DNA of 64,000 bases, taken from positions 124,001-188,000 of the forward strand of contig SVLJ01000004.1 of NCBI GenBank assembly GCA_015067995.1, in the 5' to 3' direction. The notes beneath the pieces are model-generated. The model did no database searches. It had not been told where the DNA came from and saw nothing but the letters and a program-made list of their open reading frames with translations. The translations under genes were made by a program, and so were the position numbers. Positions 14,001-56,378 of the stretch are shown one piece after another. Numbering within the stretch: position 1 is the stretch's first letter; the number at the start of each line of letters is the position of its first letter. This stretch comes from Oscillospiraceae bacterium. GTDB lineage: Bacteria > Bacillota > Clostridia > Oscillospirales > Oscillospiraceae.

Positions 14001-14258
14001 AAAAAACGCCCCTGAGCCAATGGCTCAGGGGCGTTGGAATACGCGTTACCACCCTGATTCGGTCATCCGTTGCCGAATGACCCTCAGTGGTCCATGGGAC
14101 CGTGCCTGTAACGGGGCTGAACCGTTTCGCCCTAAGTAGAAAACCTCAGGCGAAAAACTCCGGGACCAGTATCACAGGACTTCCCCACCGGCTTGCACCG
14201 CCGCCGGCTCTCTGAGGGCGGAAGACTCCCGCGTTTTTCCCATCATCGTTGCTGAACG
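14001..14258 (-). promoter_or_regulatory. T-box riboswitch leader of leuS (probable specifier CTG)
   Basis: On the minus strand the leader shows the AGAGAG motif followed by a stem I arm (GGTGCAAGCC), the conserved T-box AGGGTGGTAACGCG (14042-14055) and a terminator hairpin with arms ACGCCCCTGAGCC / GGCTCAGGGGCGT and a T run (14001-14035). In the specifier region the triplet CTG appears in GATACTGGTC, a leucine codon that fits the gene. Uncharged tRNA pairs with the specifier and T-box, stabilises the antiterminator and allows leuS to be transcribed. The triplet assignment is by eye and less sure than the T-box itself. Confidence 0.9.
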
Positions 14259-43122: not shown

Positions 43123-44013
43123 TCAATCTTCCATGTAAATATCATATACCGCTTTGGAAATTCGCGCCAGAAACTCTTCTGCCGCGCCGGCACTACCGTC
43201 CTTCTCCCATTCTTCCTTTGTGCCAACATTGCCGTTATAGAATGTTACGATGACATAGTCTCCCTTCGGCGTATATACCACACCGGCGTCGTTGCACAGA
43301 CAGTTGGTCAAAGATCCTGTCTTCCGGGCAACACGCACCCCCTTCGGAAGATACTTGGCAAGTCTTGCTTTCTTGGGGATGGGATCCATCAAAGCCAATA
43401 CCTGCTCGCTGGCCTCACGACTCAGCAGCGTGGCATCGTGGAGTGCCTGCAGAATGGTGACCATATCACGTGGACTGCTGCAATCACTCTGCTCCGTTTC
43501 GCAGCGGAACCAGGGATTGTTATAGCTGTTGATCCTTTCTCCGGTCTCCGGATCATGGTAGAAGTTCCAGATGAGCTTTGTGCAGTCAAAATCCACCTTA
43601 GTCTTCTGCAGTCCCAGAGGACGAATCACATTCTCCAGAATGTTGTCCCGTCCTATCAGTGCGAAGAGCTTGTCCGTAGCAGTATTGTCGGACAGTGCCA
43701 TCATCAAAACAGCGTGGTCATGTACCGAAAGAGCAACATTATGATGGAATCGGTAAAGTATGCCGCTGCCCGGAGAAACAGTCTCCGGCGTGACCTCGAT
43801 ACAGTCATCCAGAGAAATCAGTCCGGCTTCTGCCTGCCGGAACAACTCCGTCAGCAGGTAAATCTTAAATACACTGGCAGTGGGGATAGCCTGATCTCCC
43901 TCCAGATAACAGTCTTCGCCGGTGTTCAAATCATAAAATGCAAATCCCAGCTGACCGGTGTAGCCCTGTTTCTCGTTTTTTACGGCTTCCAGGATGCGAT
44001 CTGCCTTTTTCAT
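43123..44013 (-). CDS. Serine hydrolase of the class A beta-lactamase fold, apparently cytoplasmic
   Basis: 296 residues. The three active-site elements of the penicillin-recognising fold are present: SVFK (S47, K50), SDN (108-110) and KTG (231-233). There is no signal peptide or lipobox; the protein begins MKKADRILEAVKNEK. The omega-loop ExxLN motif, where true class A enzymes have the general-base Glu, is not recognisable (the stretch after SDN reads KTKVDFDCTKLIW). It may therefore be a related esterase or peptidase rather than a lactamase. The gene has its own promoter and stands alone. Confidence 0.78.
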   Translation of the reverse strand: MKKADRILEAVKNEKQGYTGQLGFAFYDLNTGEDCYLEGDQAIPTASVFKIYLLTELFRQAEAGLISLDDCIEVTPETVSPGSGILYRFHHNVALSVHDHAVLMMALSDNTATDKLFALIGRDNILENVIRPLGLQKTKVDFDCTKLIWNFYHDPETGERINSYNNPWFRCETEQSDCSSPRDMVTILQALHDATLLSREASEQVLALMDPIPKKARLAKYLPKGVRVARKTGSLTNCLCNDAGVVYTPKGDYVIVTFYNGNVGTKEEWEKDGSAGAAEEFLARISKAVYDIYMED

Positions 44014-48458: not shown

Positions 48459-49850
48459 TCAACCCTTTGCTCTCGCCGCCTCAAAAGCCTCCAGAGCCTC
48501 TGTCAGCGCTTCCTCAAAGGTGGGATGAGGACGCATGGCCAGCAGAAGCTGCTGTGCAGTCATGTGATTGACCATAGCCTCCGCGAGCTGGCTGATCATA
48601 TCTGTGCTGTGCTCACACATCAGCTGAGCACCCAGAATCTCGCCGGTTTCGGCATGACCCACAATCTTCATGAAGCTGCGCCCGGTATCGGCGATGAGGG
48701 TTCTGGCATTGCCGAACATCACGCACTTGCCGGTCTTGACAGGGATTCCCTGTTCCTTGGCCTCCGCCTCGGTGATACCCACCACAGCGATCTCGGGATG
48801 GCTGTAGATGCAGCTGGGCACCACGTTCATGCTGACGTGATTCTCCAGTCCGCACAGCATGTCCACACAAGCGATACCCTGCGCGGATGCCACATGAGCC
48901 AGCTGGATTTTGGAGGACACATCGCCGATGGCATAGACACCGGGGATGCTGGTCTGGTACTTCTCATCCACGCGGATGCTCCTGCCGTTCATCTCCGGCT
49001 TCAGATCACCCACAAACAGGCCATCCAGATACGGCTTGCGGCCGATGGCGCACAGGACAGCTTCGCCCTCCGCACTCTGCTGCTCTCCCTTGGAGGTAAA
49101 GCGGACAATGAGGTTCTCCCCTTCCCGCTCCACACAATCCACCATAGAGCCGGTAAAAACCTTGACACCCTGCTTTTTCAGGATCTGAACCAGATTCTGC
49201 CCCAGCTCGCGATCCATGGTGGGCAGCAGACGATCCATACCTTCAATGATGGTCACGTCGCAGCCCAGCTCACAGTAGAAGGTGGCAAACTCCACACCGA
49301 TAACACCGCCGCCAATGATGACGATAGACTTATACAGGTGGTCGGAGCCCTCCAGCAGCTCATCGGAGGTCACAACGCCCGGCAGATCCAAGCCGGGGAT
49401 AGGCGGTCTGGCCGGCACGGAGCCGGTAGCCGCCAGAATGTTGTCTGCAGTATAGACGCTCTCCGTCCCTTCCGCATCTGTTACACAGACAGTACCGGGA
49501 GCGGTAATGGCTGCAGTACCGCGAATCAGTTCCACCTTTGCTTTCTTGAACAGCGCCTCAATGCCGCCGCTGAGCTGCTCAGAAACGCGGCGCTTATTGG
49601 CGAAGATTTCCTCCATATCGGCGCGGACGCCTTCCACATGGATGCCTGCATGGGCTCCGCCCATAGCGTCACGATAAATCTGAGAGGAATGGAGCAGCGT
49701 CTTTGTGGGAACACAGCCACGGTTCAGGCAGGTGCCGCCGGCCTGACGGTTCTCCACCACAGCAGTGCGCAAGCCCAGCTTGGCGGCTCGGAGAGCCGCC
49801 ATATAGCCACCGGGGCCGGCGCCAATGACGATCAGTTGATAATCACTCAT
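48459..49850 (-). CDS. lpdA: Dihydrolipoyl dehydrogenase (L-protein)
   Basis: 463 residues. The FAD-binding start is IVIGAGPGGYMAALRAA, the redox disulfide is GGTCLNRGCVPTK (Cys41 and Cys46), the NAD-binding site is IIGGGVIGVEFATFY (near 175-190), and the C-terminal MRPHPTFEEALTEALEA carries the catalytic His/Glu pair. It reoxidises dihydrolipoyl-H-protein with NAD+. It has no lipoyl domain of its own. It is the last gene of the glycine-cleavage operon, 14 bp after gcvPB. Confidence 0.95.
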   Translation of the reverse strand: MSDYQLIVIGAGPGGYMAALRAAKLGLRTAVVENRQAGGTCLNRGCVPTKTLLHSSQIYRDAMGGAHAGIHVEGVRADMEEIFANKRRVSEQLSGGIEALFKKAKVELIRGTAAITAPGTVCVTDAEGTESVYTADNILAATGSVPARPPIPGLDLPGVVTSDELLEGSDHLYKSIVIIGGGVIGVEFATFYCELGCDVTIIEGMDRLLPTMDRELGQNLVQILKKQGVKVFTGSMVDCVEREGENLIVRFTSKGEQQSAEGEAVLCAIGRKPYLDGLFVGDLKPEMNGRSIRVDEKYQTSIPGVYAIGDVSSKIQLAHVASAQGIACVDMLCGLENHVSMNVVPSCIYSHPEIAVVGITEAEAKEQGIPVKTGKCVMFGNARTLIADTGRSFMKIVGHAETGEILGAQLMCEHSTDMISQLAEAMVNHMTAQQLLLAMRPHPTFEEALTEALEAFEAARAKG

Positions 49851-49864
49851 ATGCGCCTCCGTTA

Positions 49865-51274
49865 TTATGCCTCTGCCTTCTGATAGCGCAAGATGGGCGT
49901 TCTGGCGGCCCGGACCTCATCCGGACGGCCGATCTGTGCATTGTGGGGTGCGTTGTGCATGAATTCGGGATCTTTGTGAGCCAACTCATACAGCTGACGG
50001 AACACATCCGCCGCCCAGTCCAGCGTCTCGCGGCTTTCCGTCTCGGTGGGCTCCAGCATCAGCGCCTCGTGGACGATCAGCGGGAAATACATTGTGGGCG
50101 GATGCATGCCGTAGTCAATGAGGGACTTGGCTACATCCAGGGCGGACACGCCGGTCTCCTTCTTGAAGCCGCTGAGATCCAGCACGAACTCATGCATGCA
50201 GGTACGGTCAAAGGCAGGCTCGAAGGTACCCTGGATCTTCCGCATCAGGTAGTTGGCGTTGAGCACCGCGTTCTTGGCGGCCTCGGGAATGCCCTCCTGA
50301 CCCAGCGTCATGATGTAGGTCAGAGCCTTCACCACCACCAGGAAATTGCCTGCGAAGCTGCGCACCTGAATACCCTCTCCGCCCATCATGGCGGACTTGG
50401 GCAGGTACGGCATCAGATGTGCCTTGCAGCCCACAGCACCTGCGCCGGGGCCACCGCCGCCGTGAGGCGTGGCGAAGGTCTTGTGCAGGTTGGAATGGAT
50501 GCAGTCAAAGCCCATATCACCGGGGCGGACAACACCCATAACGGCGTTCAGGTTTGCACCGTCGTAGTAGCACAAGCCGCCGGCCTCGTGGACCAGCCGG
50601 GTGATCTCCAGAATGTTCTCGTCGAAAATACCGACGGTGTTGGGATTGGTCAGCATCAGACCGGCGGTATCCTCGCCCAGAACCGCCTTCAGGGCTTCCA
50701 GATCCACGCAGCCATTGGGTGCGGAGGGGATATTCACCACCTGATAGCCGCACATATTGGCAGTGGCAGGATTGGTTCCGTGAGCAGAGTCGGGAACGAT
50801 GATCTTTGTACGCTTAGCGCCCTCGCCTCGCGCATCGTGATACTGCTTGATCAGCAGGATGCCGGTGAATTCGCCGTGGGCACCGGCAGCAGGCTGGAAG
50901 GTACAGGCATCCATGCCGAAAATCTCGCACAGATACTTGCTGGCAGTCTCCAGCACTTCGCGGCAGCCCTCCGTGGCATAGGCAGGAGCCAGCGGATGCA
51001 CCTGCGTAAAGCCGGGCAGCGCCGCCATCTCCTCATCGATGCGGGGATTGTACTTCATGGTACAGGAGCCCAGTGGATAGAAGCCGCAGTTGACGCCATG
51101 CACGTTCTTGTTCAGTTCGGTATAGTGACGGGAGATATCCGTCTCGCTCATTTCCGGCAGCGCAGGTGCCGTTTCACGCACCAGCTCCTCCGGCAGTGCC
51201 ACCAGCTCCACATCACAGGGAGGCAGCAAGGACAGTGCGCGTCCGGGAGCGCTCTTTTCAAAAATCAGCTTCAT
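49865..51274 (-). CDS. gcvPB: Glycine dehydrogenase (decarboxylating) subunit 2
   Basis: 469 residues, the PLP-bearing half of the split P-protein. YPLGSCTMKYNP near 68-79 and QPAAGAHGEFTG near 130 are typical, and the PLP lysine is in NLHKTFATPHGGGGPGAG (near 255-275). It decarboxylates glycine and passes the aminomethyl group to the lipoyl arm of the H-protein. Its ATG overlaps the stop of gcvPA by four bases. Confidence 0.96.
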   Translation of the reverse strand: MKLIFEKSAPGRALSLLPPCDVELVALPEELVRETAPALPEMSETDISRHYTELNKNVHGVNCGFYPLGSCTMKYNPRIDEEMAALPGFTQVHPLAPAYATEGCREVLETASKYLCEIFGMDACTFQPAAGAHGEFTGILLIKQYHDARGEGAKRTKIIVPDSAHGTNPATANMCGYQVVNIPSAPNGCVDLEALKAVLGEDTAGLMLTNPNTVGIFDENILEITRLVHEAGGLCYYDGANLNAVMGVVRPGDMGFDCIHSNLHKTFATPHGGGGPGAGAVGCKAHLMPYLPKSAMMGGEGIQVRSFAGNFLVVVKALTYIMTLGQEGIPEAAKNAVLNANYLMRKIQGTFEPAFDRTCMHEFVLDLSGFKKETGVSALDVAKSLIDYGMHPPTMYFPLIVHEALMLEPTETESRETLDWAADVFRQLYELAHKDPEFMHNAPHNAQIGRPDEVRAARTPILRYQKAEA

Positions 51275-52587
51275 CCTGCGCACACCTCCTTCACAATGGC
51301 GATGGCCCGATCCAGCTCGGACTTGGCCGCCTTCTCTGTAGCACACCACAGAACGCCGCCCTCCACGGGCAGACCGCCCAGAATACCGGCGTCCTCCAGA
51401 GCCTTCAATGCCTCGTCGGCCTTGGGCATCTCCACCACGAACTCGTCAAAGTATTCACCGACGTACTTCATGGAAATGCCGGGAATGGCCGTGAGACCGG
51501 CAGCCAGATAATGCGCCTTGGCCATGGACTGGCGTGCAGCCTCTGCCATGCCGTTGGGGCCCATGGTGGCCATATACAGGCCGGCAGTCAGGGCGCACAG
51601 GGCCTGATTGGAGCAGATGTTGCTGCTGGCCTTTTCGCGGCGGATATGCTGCTCACGGGCCTGCAGAGACAGCACGAAGGCACGCTCACCCTTGCTGTCC
51701 ACAGTCTCGCCCACAATGCGGCCGGGGAGCTTGCGCATATGCTTGGTAATGGTGGCCATATAGCCCAGATACGGGCCACCGTAGCTCACCGGCATGCCAA
51801 GAGGCTGTGCCTCGCCCACGGCGATGTCTGCACCGCAGTCGCGGGGCGTCTTGGTAATGGCCAGTGCAATGGGGTTGCAGCCCATGATATACATGGCGCC
51901 GGCAGCATGCACAGCCTCTCCCAGTGCAGCGGCATCCTCGAAGATACCGTTGAAGTTGGGCTGCTGGACATAGAAGGATGCCACGTCAGGGGTCAGCATC
52001 TCCTTCAATGCCTCCAGATCAGTCTTGCCATCCTTGGCAGGTACGATCCGCAGTTCGTCACCGGTTCCGTAGCAATAGGTACGGACGGTGTTGATGGTAT
52101 CGGGATGCGCGGCAGCAGAGATCAGCGTCACCTTGCGCTTACGGTCGCGGCACATGGCAGCAGCCTCGGCAGCGGCAGTAGCACCGTCGTACACAGATGC
52201 ATTGGATACATCCATGCCCGTCAGTTCGCAGATCATGGTCTGGTATTCGAAAATGGACTGAAGGACACCCTGGCTCATCTCAGCCTGATAGGGCGTATAG
52301 GCGGTAAGGAACTCCTCCTTGGCAGGGATGTACTTAACGATGCTGGGGATATAGTGGTCATAAGCACCGGCTCCGCGCAGGATCGTGCCGAACACCTTGT
52401 TCCTGGCAGCCATGGCGCTGACAGCGCGGCTGACCTCCAGCTCGCTCATGCCCGCGGGGATATTCAGCGGCTGATCCAGATACATCTGCTCGGGTACATC
52501 CCGATACAGCTCCCGATAGTCACTGAGCCCAACGGCCTTCAGCATCTCCTGCCGCTCCGCCGGAGTGGAAGGAATGTAGCTGCCCAT
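51271..52587 (-). CDS. gcvPA: Glycine dehydrogenase (decarboxylating) subunit 1
   Basis: 438 residues, the other half of the P-protein. YIPSTPAERQEMLKAVG at the start, FLTAYTPYQAEMSQGVLQSIFEYQTM near 113-138 and NVYDGATAAAEA-like NASVYDGATAAAEAA near 149-163 fit the family. It lies three bases after gcvH. The split P1/P2 arrangement is usual in Gram-positive bacteria. Confidence 0.95.
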   Translation of the reverse strand: MGSYIPSTPAERQEMLKAVGLSDYRELYRDVPEQMYLDQPLNIPAGMSELEVSRAVSAMAARNKVFGTILRGAGAYDHYIPSIVKYIPAKEEFLTAYTPYQAEMSQGVLQSIFEYQTMICELTGMDVSNASVYDGATAAAEAAAMCRDRKRKVTLISAAAHPDTINTVRTYCYGTGDELRIVPAKDGKTDLEALKEMLTPDVASFYVQQPNFNGIFEDAAALGEAVHAAGAMYIMGCNPIALAITKTPRDCGADIAVGEAQPLGMPVSYGGPYLGYMATITKHMRKLPGRIVGETVDSKGERAFVLSLQAREQHIRREKASSNICSNQALCALTAGLYMATMGPNGMAEAARQSMAKAHYLAAGLTAIPGISMKYVGEYFDEFVVEMPKADEALKALEDAGILGGLPVEGGVLWCATEKAAKSELDRAIAIVKEVCAG

Positions 52588-52589
52588 GA

Positions 52590-52967
52590 TTAGCCCTCCT
52601 CAGCGCAGAAAGCCTCGTAAGCGGCAGCGTCCAGCAGTTCCTCCTGATCGGTGATGTTCTCCACCTTGATGATCCATGCGTCATAAGCGCCCTGGTTCAG
52701 CTTCTCGGGAGCATCCAGCAGTTCCTCATTGACAGCGCAGATCACGCCGCTCACAGGGCAGATCAGATCGGAAACGGCCTTCACGGACTCCACGTCGCCA
52801 AAGCTCTCGCCTGCGGTGACTTCGTCACCCTCTGCGGGCAGATTGATGAACACCACATCGCCCAGTGCGTCCTGTGCGAAATCGGAAATGCCGATGACAG
52901 CCACATCGCCGTCCATCTTGACCCACTCGTGGGACTTGGAATACTTCAGTTCTGCAGGATAGTTCAT
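52590..52967 (-). CDS. gcvH: Glycine cleavage system H-protein
   Basis: 125 residues. The lipoyl lysine is K63 in [13 protein letters not shown], and [23 protein letters not shown] precedes it. The arm carries the aminomethyl group between P, T and L proteins. TGGAGGT lies before the ATG. It is between the fused T-protein gene and gcvPA. Confidence 0.96.
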
Positions 52968-53058
52968 AATGTTACCTCCAAAATTAATAATTGATTGAGT
53001 TTATATGGAACCGGGTTTCGCACCGGGGGAAGTTCCCCTCCCCCGGCACAAAGGATTA

Positions 53059-55707
53059 TCACACGCCGATCTGAGCGGCAAATGCGCCCAGAGTCTCCAG
53101 ATACTCGTCGTCATTGAAGCAATAGCGCATCTCGGTATGCTCAGCACGCAGCTTCTCCACATCGCCGGAGATATCCTGACCGCGCAGGATGCAGTCAGCC
53201 ATCAGCTCCGCCAGACGTGCAAACTCCTCCTTACCGAAGCCGAAGCGGGTCATCTCGCTGACGCCCATGCGCAGTGCGCCGGAAGCGGTGAAGCCCTCTT
53301 CATCGGGAGTGGCCTGATAGTTGACGATAATGTTGTTCTCCTCCAGGCGCTCAGCAACCTCGGGACCGCTGCCGTAGCCCACGGAGACGATGACCTGATG
53401 GGTCTCGGTATAGTCGATGGAAGGATCGCCCACCACGTTGAGTCCCTGTGCCTTCAGACACTTGGCAAAATGCTTGGCGTTCTCAATGATGGCCTTCTGA
53501 TACTCGCCCTTGAAGTGGTTCATTTCATAAGCCGCCATCAGCAGACCCAGCTGGGTGCCCAGATGATGGTTGGACACGCTGCCGGGGAACGCACGGCTCT
53601 CAATGGTCTCCCACAGACCGTACTTCAGCTCATCCTTCTTGTAGTTGACGCCGATGACGCCGCGCTGCGGTCCGAAGAAGGTCTTGTGGGTGGAGCCGGT
53701 GACGATCTCAGCGCCTTCCTCGAAAGGCTTCTGGAAGTAATCGCCCACCAGACCCAGAACGTGAGCCATATCGTACATGATGGTGGTAGGGATATTTTGC
53801 TCATCCACAAACTGGCGGATGGCAGCCACAGGCTCCTTATGGAGCACCATGCTCTTGCCGAAGATGATCAGCTCAGGACGATACTTCTCGATGATCTTCT
53901 TGGTCTCCTCCACGTCGATCTTGTAGATGTTGTCCTTGCAGACGGGGAAGTTGACGATGGCGGACTTCTCTGTGACGGGATCCACAGCGATGTAGTCCTT
54001 CAGAGCGCCCATGGGCTGTGCGGACAGGTGGCCGCCCTTGATGATGTGGTTGTTGAGGACATAGCCCAGACGCTTGGGATCGTGCTTGCGATCCAGACGG
54101 TTCTTCCAATCCATCAGTGCGGAGAACACGGCGGTGTTGGACATCTGGCCGCTGATGACGCGTGTCTCCACTTCAGAGCAGCCGAAGTACTGCTTCATCT
54201 GCTCCACAGCCAGCTGTTCCACCTCGTCGATGAACTTGGTGCCCTGATAATAGAAGATATCCTGATCGTAGAAGGACTTGATCTTCTTATGCTCCGCATA
54301 GCGGAAAGCGGGATCGGAGGCGCACAGCATCTGCACGGCGCGGCTGGGGGTGTTCTCAGAGGGAATCAGGTTGATGCACTTCTTCTGACGCCACTGATGG
54401 TTCTCAGCAGCCTTGCGGATCAGCTCCAGTGCCTTGGCAGGACGATCGCTCTCTGCAGCAGCTGCGTTCTCCGTCTTGGGACGATACAGAATGGGACGGG
54501 CAAAGGGCGGTGCATCCACGCGCATGTGATAGGGCGGGATCACAGCCTTCAGCCGCTTGCCGCGAATATCCACTTCCACGATATCATCTTCCAGCACATC
54601 GCTGGCAATGTAGCACATACCGATGGAGCGCTTGGCAGTCTCTTCCAGAATAACGGTCTGCAGGCCCTCGCCCTCGGCGCGGTAATAGGGCACCATGGTA
54701 CCGCTGGTAACCCAGCCGATCTGCTCATCACCGCGATAGATGGGCATACCGGCACGGATGACGCCGCGATCCAGCAGGGTGATAGGCTGGATACGCTTGG
54801 GAACAGCAGTGACATCGCTGAAGTCACGGTTCATGATGCGCTTGAAGGCGGCAGACTGCACCTCCAGAGCGGCACGACCCACGAAGTCACCCTTCTGCTC
54901 AGAGAAGCTGACGGCGAAGCGGGCCAGAGACACGGAGAAGATGGGCATGGGCACGCCCTCTGGATCGGTGCCCATCTCATGACCGTACAGAGGCATGCCG
55001 GCTTCCAGACGCAGGGTGTCGCGTGCGCCCAGACCGGCAGGCTTGGCGCCCAGCTCCACCAGACGGTTCCACAGCCATGCAGCTTCATCGCTGGCAATGT
55101 ACACCTCATAGCCCAGAGGCTCGCCGGTGTAACCGGTCTTGGCCACCTGAACGGTGTGGCCTTCCAGCTGCAGGGTATTCAGAGCGTTCTTCATGGGCTC
55201 AGTGACAGCCTCACCGCCAGAGAGGATCATCATCAGCTCCTTGCTCTTGGGTCCCTGAACGGCAATTCCGGCATAATCAGCAGTTATATCGGTAATTGTA
55301 CAGTTATAATCCTTTACAATCTTATTCAGATGCTTCAGGTCCTTTTCCGTATTGGCAGCATTCACCACCAGCAGGAAACGATCCTCCTCGAAGCGATAGA
55401 GATAGGCATCGTCCACGGCGCAGCCGTTCTCATCAGGAATGATGCAGTACTGCGCCATGTTCAGATCCAGCGCCATAACGTTGCTGGTGAGCACATGCTG
55501 CAGGAATGCTACTCTGTCAGGACCCTCGATGAGCAGACGACCCATGTGGGACACGTCAAACAGGCTGCATGCATGACGGGTATAGAGATGCTCCGCCACG
55601 ATACCGCTGGGATACTGAATGGGCATTTCCCATCCGCCGAAGTCCACCATGGATGCCCCTGCCTGGATATGGACATCGTAGAGTTGCGTACGCTTAAGTT
55701 CGCTCAT
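53059..55707 (-). CDS. gcvT: Fusion of glycine-cleavage T-protein and a serine hydroxymethyltransferase-like domain
   Basis: 882 residues in one uninterrupted frame. Residues 1-365 are GcvT: FGGWEMPIQYPSGI, LFDVSHMG and GCAVDDAYLYRF (with the folate-binding Asp), then GLGARDTLRLEAGMPLYG. After a linker (about 366-430, rich in Ala and charged residues) comes an SHMT-like PLP domain (about 431-882), with NLIPSENTPS, YDMAHVLGLVGDYF and the PLP lysine in GSTHKTFFGPQ (about K675). The SHMT part is divergent: the canonical YAEGYPGRRYYGG region reads YAEHKKIKSF instead. The T domain releases ammonia and makes methylene-THF; the SHMT domain could use it with another glycine to make serine. The ATG at 55705-55707 has AGGAGG upstream. 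It leads the operon behind a glycine riboswitch. Confidence 0.93.
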   Translation of the reverse strand: MSELKRTQLYDVHIQAGASMVDFGGWEMPIQYPSGIVAEHLYTRHACSLFDVSHMGRLLIEGPDRVAFLQHVLTSNVMALDLNMAQYCIIPDENGCAVDDAYLYRFEEDRFLLVVNAANTEKDLKHLNKIVKDYNCTITDITADYAGIAVQGPKSKELMMILSGGEAVTEPMKNALNTLQLEGHTVQVAKTGYTGEPLGYEVYIASDEAAWLWNRLVELGAKPAGLGARDTLRLEAGMPLYGHEMGTDPEGVPMPIFSVSLARFAVSFSEQKGDFVGRAALEVQSAAFKRIMNRDFSDVTAVPKRIQPITLLDRGVIRAGMPIYRGDEQIGWVTSGTMVPYYRAEGEGLQTVILEETAKRSIGMCYIASDVLEDDIVEVDIRGKRLKAVIPPYHMRVDAPPFARPILYRPKTENAAAAESDRPAKALELIRKAAENHQWRQKKCINLIPSENTPSRAVQMLCASDPAFRYAEHKKIKSFYDQDIFYYQGTKFIDEVEQLAVEQMKQYFGCSEVETRVISGQMSNTAVFSALMDWKNRLDRKHDPKRLGYVLNNHIIKGGHLSAQPMGALKDYIAVDPVTEKSAIVNFPVCKDNIYKIDVEETKKIIEKYRPELIIFGKSMVLHKEPVAAIRQFVDEQNIPTTIMYDMAHVLGLVGDYFQKPFEEGAEIVTGSTHKTFFGPQRGVIGVNYKKDELKYGLWETIESRAFPGSVSNHHLGTQLGLLMAAYEMNHFKGEYQKAIIENAKHFAKCLKAQGLNVVGDPSIDYTETHQVIVSVGYGSGPEVAERLEENNIIVNYQATPDEEGFTASGALRMGVSEMTRFGFGKEEFARLAELMADCILRGQDISGDVEKLRAEHTEMRYCFNDDEYLETLGAFAAQIGV

Positions 55708-55777
55708 AGTCAACCTCCTGTTATTTTCGATTCCTTTTGAATACTATAATCCTTTGAGCCATTGCATATGACAAAAC

Positions 55778-55970
55778 AAAAAGAGGCACAAAACGCCTGT
55801 CAAAGCGTTCTGTGCCTCCGTCTTGACCTGAGAGATTCCCCGCACATTGCGGGTTGCACCGTCGGTGTGCGGCTGCGCCGCACTTTCCGGAGAATCGTCC
55901 TGATCCGGTCCTTTTGCCTGAGAGCTTCTGCTTCCCCTTCGGCGCCGCAGCTGCGGTCTCTCCCGAATCC
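55778..55970 (-). promoter_or_regulatory. Tandem glycine riboswitch with terminator
   Basis: On the minus strand two aptamers follow each other. The first (about 55905-55970) contains GGGAGAG ... GCGCCGAAGGGG ... CTCTCAGGCAAAAGGAC. The second (about 55815-55895) contains CACACCGACGGTGCAA ... CTCTCAGGTCAAGACGGAGG. A terminator hairpin (GAGGCACAAAACGC pairing with GCGTTCTGTGCCTC, 55783-55818) with a T run overlaps the last aptamer strand. Glycine binding should prevent the terminator and switch the operon on. Confidence 0.93.
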
Positions 55971-56027
55971 ATCATCCGATCCGTTATTCTGTTTTCAGAC
56001 ATTCATTTCCAGTCCCTTACTGTGGTA

Positions 56028-56110: not shown

Positions 56111-56135
56111 GCCTGTAGAAACACAGGTGAATCAT

Positions 56136-56275
56136 TGTCTTCAGGGCGGGGTGCGATTCCCCACTGGCGGTACAGTCCGCGACCGGATATGCCATGCATA
56201 TCCGCTGATCCGGTGAAACTCCGGAACCAACAGTAATGTCCGCCGAAGGGCGGCTGAGTCTGGATGGAAGAAGTG
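56136..56275 (+). promoter_or_regulatory. FMN riboswitch (RFN element)
   Basis: The conserved blocks are in order: TCTTCAGGGCGGGGTGC, ATTCCCCACTGGCGGTA, CAGTCCGCGA, GGTGAAACTCCGG, ACCAACAGTAATGTC and AGTCTGGATGGAAGA. The outermost pair is TCTTC/GGAAGA. A weak hairpin (AGTGCAG/CTGCGCT, then CTTTT) follows and may be the expression platform. FMN should lower ribU expression. Confidence 0.93.
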
Positions 56276-56378
56276 CAGTGCGGTGATGGTGTGCGGTTCT
56301 GTCTGCGCTCTTTTGCTGCTTGTTGAACTCGGAAGGCAAGCGAGTGTTTTGCAAGCAAATGCAAAGGAGTGTATTTTT

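Follow-up and report, generated by a model that had tools for sequence, protein, structure and literature searches.

The window, a 64,000-nucleotide stretch of the genome of an Oscillospiraceae bacterium (contig SVLJ01000004.1, positions 124,001 to 188,000), contains at 53059..55707 of the minus strand a gene that joins the T-protein of the glycine cleavage system (GCS), GcvT, to a serine hydroxymethyltransferase (SHMT). This GcvT-SHMT fusion is genuine and conserved, and is a new combination of domains whose component enzymes are both well known. The encoded protein is quite probably a bifunctional enzyme of glycine catabolism, in which GcvT and an SHMT of archaeal-like type would together convert glycine to serine.

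The gene is one uninterrupted open reading frame (ORF; coding 53062-55707) of 882 residues plus stop, as the first-pass annotation of the window had stated, and specifies a complete GcvT connected by a short linker to a complete SHMT fold, all on the minus strand. The T-protein part has the aminomethyltransferase fold and covers residues 3-403 (54499..55701), including Asp100, Tyr104, Asn116, Glu201 and Arg229. The linker, at about residues 404-420 (54448..54498), has low model confidence. The SHMT part comprises residues 421-882 (53062..54447), with the pyridoxal phosphate (PLP) lysine Lys675 and with Tyr470, Glu472, His560, Asp646, His649 and Arg813. An antisense ORF of 911 residues (53005-55740, plus strand) spans the entire fusion gene and is probably a by-product of codon use.

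The database search for full-length co-linear homologues proposed with that annotation returned 7,844 matches. The 120 best listed among them span the full length, with 880-886 residues, and contain each of the three domains; where a source name is attached, which is so for only a few, it reads GcvT or aminomethyltransferase. When named genomes were scanned, the best 80 loci were kept (locus counts out of 80 refer to these); the fused frame is open over at least 850 residues in 75, three are cut by contig ends and two are broken in frame. In L131 (genome G491), and also in L086, the frame of the fusion gene is broken near T residue 60, through error or decay. The carriers include Oscillibacter valericigenes, O. 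ruminantium, Sporomusa ovata, S. malonica, Clostridium thailandense and Acetobacterium wieringae; two carrier metagenome-assembled genomes (MAGs) labelled Riflebacteria may be misbinned. The idea that the fusion is confined to the window's genome is thus rejected by the many other carriers. It is not typical of the family either, since the distribution is patchy: counting the window's own genome each time, carriers amount to 5/120 family genomes, 8/394 order genomes (E 1e-90) and 2/398 phylum genomes (E 1e-60), one of the latter two from another class. The same genus is represented in the samples by one other genome, which gave no T-protein match. This patchy distribution points to horizontal transfer and loss.

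The T half belongs to the GcvT family, and aminomethyl transfer activity is predicted for it. The GCV_T domain scores 259 bits (Pfam cut-off 25.6), and the NCBIfam cut-offs are exceeded for TIGR00528 (262.5 vs 235.85) and PRK00389 (329.3 vs 300); a third GcvT model, PRK13579, stays below its cut-off (237.5 vs 459). Residues D100, Y104, N116, E201 and R229 are invariant in all 46 aligned rows. By alignment, they match what we take to be D96, Y100, N112, E195 and R227 of the Thermotoga T-protein, presumably the catalytic Asp and the folate-contacting Tyr, Asn, Glu and Arg. The T half shares with canonical GcvT (PF01571/PF08669, TIGR00528) the whole fold, the residues linked to folate and catalysis and the gcv-operon setting. 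It differs in its length (about 390-400 residues, compared with 361-387 in five canonical relatives), in forming a clade of its own (support 100/100) and in the SHMT attached at the C-terminus.

The SHMT half passes the PF00464 cut-off with the whole SHMT fold present, and its closest solved sequence is the SHMT of Methanocaldococcus jannaschii (202 bits, the next one reaching 112). Like H560, the residues K675, D646, H649, Y470/E472, Y486/Y487 and R813 are invariant in the same 46 rows; the latter presumably represent the PLP lysine, the Asp and His, the Tyr-Ala-Glu motif, the Tyr pair and the substrate Arg. Positions with known mutants in the Bacillus stearothermophilus SHMT (bsSHMT) were matched to the fusion through sequence alignment: Y51, E53, Y60, Y61, S172, K226 and F351 correspond to Y470, E472, Y486, Y487, S619, K675 and F806, and each counterpart keeps the bsSHMT residue in 46/46 rows. 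The Arg of the GPRGG motif of GlyA, the canonical bacterial SHMT, is replaced by Gln in both the fusion and the M. jannaschii enzyme. The latter (4bhd, 4uqv) is a stand-alone archaeal protein and lacks both the insertion after the Tyr-Ala-Glu motif and the Asn341-to-Gln change (bsSHMT numbering) of the fusion. With the canonical GlyA of its own genome, the SHMT half has the fold family and the active-site residues in common, but it is only 33% identical and has another folate loop, and that GlyA is unfused and placed elsewhere in the genome. Rather than a copy of bacterial GlyA, the SHMT half is an archaeal-like type of its own, in which the folate loop is remodelled. This kinship rests on the scores, because the single M. 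jannaschii row makes the split trivial in the tree with GlyA, which five of the eight named canonical GlyA loci entered (three were missed by the motif cut).

The occurrence of GlyA across genomes suggests that the SHMT half acts as an SHMT in vivo and is interchangeable with GlyA. Three of the first six fusion genomes checked, 94-98% complete, lack GlyA. Among 50 fusion-bearing genomes, chosen by similarity to the window, 20 have no other SHMT; G540 and G551, counted among them, are G401 and G428 of the first six, as judged by identical coordinates. The fraction without GlyA is thus 20/50 in carriers, compared with 6/73 high-quality (Fisher p 3e-5) or 19/115 genomes of any quality (p 0.002) in the fusion-free family genomes, of which 67/73 and 96/115, respectively, hold GlyA. 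Within the same 120-genome sample, GlyA is kept by 13/13 high-quality genomes with an unfused T-protein and by 2/5 fusion genomes (p 0.012); in two of the 13, G450 and G480, the T match is weak (118 and 150 bits) and perhaps not a genuine GcvT. Overall, 17/18 genomes with an unfused T-protein match have GlyA (that of G432 being a partial match), the exception being G456, which is 69% complete. The explanation that GlyA is lost simply because the GCS supplies one-carbon units is therefore unsupported. In some anaerobes, the fusion appears to be the only remaining enzyme interconverting serine and glycine. In a family relative (L129), a canonical glyA lies directly behind Lpd in the gcv operon.

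Stand-alone relatives of both halves are also found. The T tree was built from 44 of the 74 available fused sequences (the fused row L132 was not included) and nine stand-alone ones. One clade (100/100) unites the 44 fused rows with four stand-alone ones, which stand at two places inside it, with weak support at the placing forks (83/74, 86/70). A history of one fusion and two later losses of the SHMT half fits. The best topology and the bootstrap range need three label changes; the strongly supported branches force only one and would also allow the stand-alone T-proteins of this clade to predate the fusion. In L125, L126 and L127 such proteins occupy the operon-leading place of the fusion, and these three probably arose when the SHMT half was lost. 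The L125 proteins are close to those of the window (T 68%, H 70%, PA 75% and PB 82% identity) and L126 behaves likewise; no GcvH was found beside the L127 protein. All three genomes (G409, G446, G459) have GlyA. The fourth stand-alone T-protein (L047:10674-11900) immediately follows a GcvT-SHMT fusion within one cluster, in a genome (G518) with the fusion and without GlyA. Stand-alone SHMT halves of 466 residues (P0222, P0228, P0240) form a group separate from 27 fused ones (95/93), and their N-terminus is unlike the linker of the fusion. The eight matches in the 394 order genomes include no unfused SHMT half.

The fusion is the first gene of an operon behind a tandem glycine riboswitch, and all the components named in the first-pass annotation were located on the minus strand. 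It is followed by GcvH (125 residues, 52590..52967), GcvPA or P1 (438 residues, 51271..52587), GcvPB or P2 (469 residues from the ATG at 51274, 49865..51274; a longer ORF starts at 51349) and the dihydrolipoyl dehydrogenase Lpd or L-protein (463 residues, 48459..49850). The two aptamers, at 55896..55975 (61.5 bits) and 55816..55892 (43.1 bits), both exceed the RF00504 gathering score of 32 bits. An intrinsic-terminator-like hairpin (55782..55819) has a 17-pair stem that begins inside the final 4 nt of aptamer 2. Such an aptamer-terminator layout is usually taken as a glycine-ON switch, and the ON sense is presumed here as well. In 10 of the 14 related loci that were searched, the gcv operon likewise lies behind glycine aptamers, arranged in tandem in four (L053, L108, L117, L122); none turned up in L075, L109, L111 and L114, and in L109, L111 and L114 the gcv genes do not adjoin the fusion. 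GcvH lies inside the fetched flanks of the fusion in 69/80 loci. The fusion comes first in most loci, after PB in L097, L103 (with Lpd between), L110 and L122, and between H and PA in L115, L117 and L120. In S. malonica, which has no gcv genes nearby, ORFs resembling components of corrinoid-dependent methyltransferases (L111:567-4013, read by eye) are placed upstream of the fusion.

In the proposed mechanism, glycine would fill the tandem riboswitch, open the terminator and switch the operon on. The N-terminal half would then accept the aminomethyl group of lipoylated GcvH, yielding 5,10-methylene-tetrahydrofolate (methylene-THF) and ammonia. Subsequently, the PLP-dependent C-terminal half would combine the one-carbon unit with a second glycine, giving serine and returning THF, which would cycle between the halves of one chain. 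Together with GcvPA/PB and Lpd, two glycines would be converted to serine, CO2, NH3 and reduced nicotinamide adenine dinucleotide (NADH). The serine could be converted to pyruvate by serine dehydratase, two alpha-type (SDH_alpha) ORFs of which are encoded elsewhere in the genome. The two-glycine stoichiometry proposed by the first-pass annotation is the most likely chemistry, with the active-site residues of both halves invariant in 46/46 rows. As an interpretation, that annotation is supported in part: it describes the fused gene, its operon and its riboswitch correctly; it missed the separate GlyA, the archaeal-like type of the SHMT and the occurrence in many other genomes. We infer the SHMT activity, the direction of the reaction and whatever advantage the physical link may bring, which would consist of THF recycling on one protein, a fixed 1:1 dosage and, possibly, channelling. 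Dosage and local THF recycling may suffice to explain the fusion, attractive as channelling is. A stronger version is possible, if rather doubtful: methylene-THF, or its bound formaldehyde unit, would pass straight from the T-protein to a specialised SHMT of the archaeal type in the same chain, the folate-loop insertion and the Asn-to-Gln change would be adaptations to channelling, and the ordinary SHMT would have been displaced in many anaerobes. The SHMT active site is built from two subunits, so a monomer model is unable to show it.

Several observations weigh against the bifunctional glycine-to-serine enzyme. The window's genome also encodes a canonical GlyA (contig 34); the fusion thus adds an SHMT here and is rejected as the sole supplier. 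GlyA is likewise found beside the fusion in 30/50 carrier genomes. The absences of GlyA are to be read with the proviso that MAGs may miss genes and that the 50 carriers come without completeness figures. Two genomes counted as lacking GlyA, G529 and G551, have a second PF00464 match of about 32 bits (Pfam cut-off 27), which we interpret as a different PLP enzyme, GlyA itself scoring 415-589 against PF00464 in the 50 genomes. The SHMT half lies below the cut-off of the NCBIfam SHMT model PRK00011 (278.8 vs 335 bits), and thus outside that subfamily model. On its folate side, the bsSHMT Asn341, which we take to be the folate-side Asn, is Gln798 in 46/46 fusion rows, and seven residues are inserted between the catalytic E472 and the Tyr pair. 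Finally, 11/80 loci have no gcvH or gcvP nearby, four of these contigs ending at the gene; GcvP is encoded elsewhere in 8 of the 11 genomes and was not seen in 3.

Among the alternatives, an active GcvT and SHMT working mainly in the assimilatory direction is rather unlikely, though a serious candidate in acetogens, where it is most plausible. In this reductive glycine route, CO2, ammonia and two methylene-THF would give serine, so that it overlaps with glycine catabolism and differs in direction only. The fusions of Sporomusa, Acetobacterium and Clostridium speak for it, as do the corrinoid-methyltransferase-like ORFs read by eye near the S. malonica fusion. A study of Dehalobacteriia, in the part consulted, proposes a carbon route from the GCS through glycine and serine to pyruvate (PMC10327494). 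The glycine riboswitch ahead of the operon, in the window and in 10/14 relatives, fits glycine disposal and argues against assimilation. Still less probable is a PLP aldolase or transaldolase, of the threonine or another beta-hydroxy-amino-acid type, that would feed glycine to cleavage and not use methylene-THF. The L-threonine and fluorothreonine transaldolases (7k34, TIGR04506) are indeed PLP enzymes of the SHMT fold; the SHMT half is, however, only 24% identical to 7k34, compared with 35% to its closest solved structure, an SHMT, and its TIGR04506 score of 164.9 bits is far below the equivalog cut-off of 650. The Tyr-Ala-Glu motif, which presumably has an SHMT role, is invariant in 46/46 rows, and fusion-bearing genomes lack GlyA more often. 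A regulatory or scaffold role of the SHMT half, as a glycine- or PLP-binding domain devoid of catalysis, is very improbable: the second, canonical GlyA would allow it, but Lys675 and the other checked active-site residues are invariant, 20/50 carriers have no other SHMT, and distant carriers conserve the SHMT half more strongly than the T half (71 vs 56% in L109, 69 vs 55% in L115, 69 vs 51% in L122). An assembly error at the join has nothing in its favour and can be dismissed: 75 of the 80 best named loci, Oscillibacter, Sporomusa, Acetobacterium and others among them, keep the join open, as do the 120 best listed proteins of the database search.

Divergently from the gcv operon, an FMN (flavin mononucleotide) riboswitch (56133-56280, plus strand, 91.3 bits) precedes the substrate-binding component of an energy-coupling factor (ECF) transporter (PF12822, 56379-57056, plus strand); this unit probably serves riboflavin uptake. 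Elsewhere in the window are a T-box leader (14024-14255, minus strand, 97.6 bits) and a protein of the Beta-lactamase enzyme family (43123-44013, minus strand, PF13354, 172 bits), which could be a penicillin-binding-type hydrolase and does not imply resistance.

If the bifunctional interpretation is true, a single protein carries out the central glycine-serine one-carbon step in many anaerobes of gut and sediment, and annotations and metabolic models wrongly infer the absence of SHMT in a number of carrier genomes. The fusion would also offer a natural GcvT-SHMT chimera for carbon assimilation by the glycine route and a clean test case for folate channelling between two unlike active sites. 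The plant mitochondrial couple of glycine decarboxylase and SHMT likewise converts two glycines to serine, CO2, NH3 and NADH. The net reaction would be alike, whereas the plant proteins are separate and linked by diffusing folate. The parts of the open-licence PubMed Central literature that were searched, PMC4894688, PMC10327494 and PMC12674515 included, contain no description of the fusion. A functional parallel described in them is the gcs2 operon of Pseudomonas aeruginosa, given in the part consulted as gcvH2-gcvP2-glyA2-sdaA-gcvT2 (PMC4894688). Both systems pair the GCS with an SHMT; gcs2 adds a serine dehydratase, is induced by glycine and leads from glycine to pyruvate. According to the same part of that source, gcs2 keeps separate genes under a protein activator, GcsR, whereas the fusion operon joins the two enzymes in one chain and is preceded by a riboswitch.
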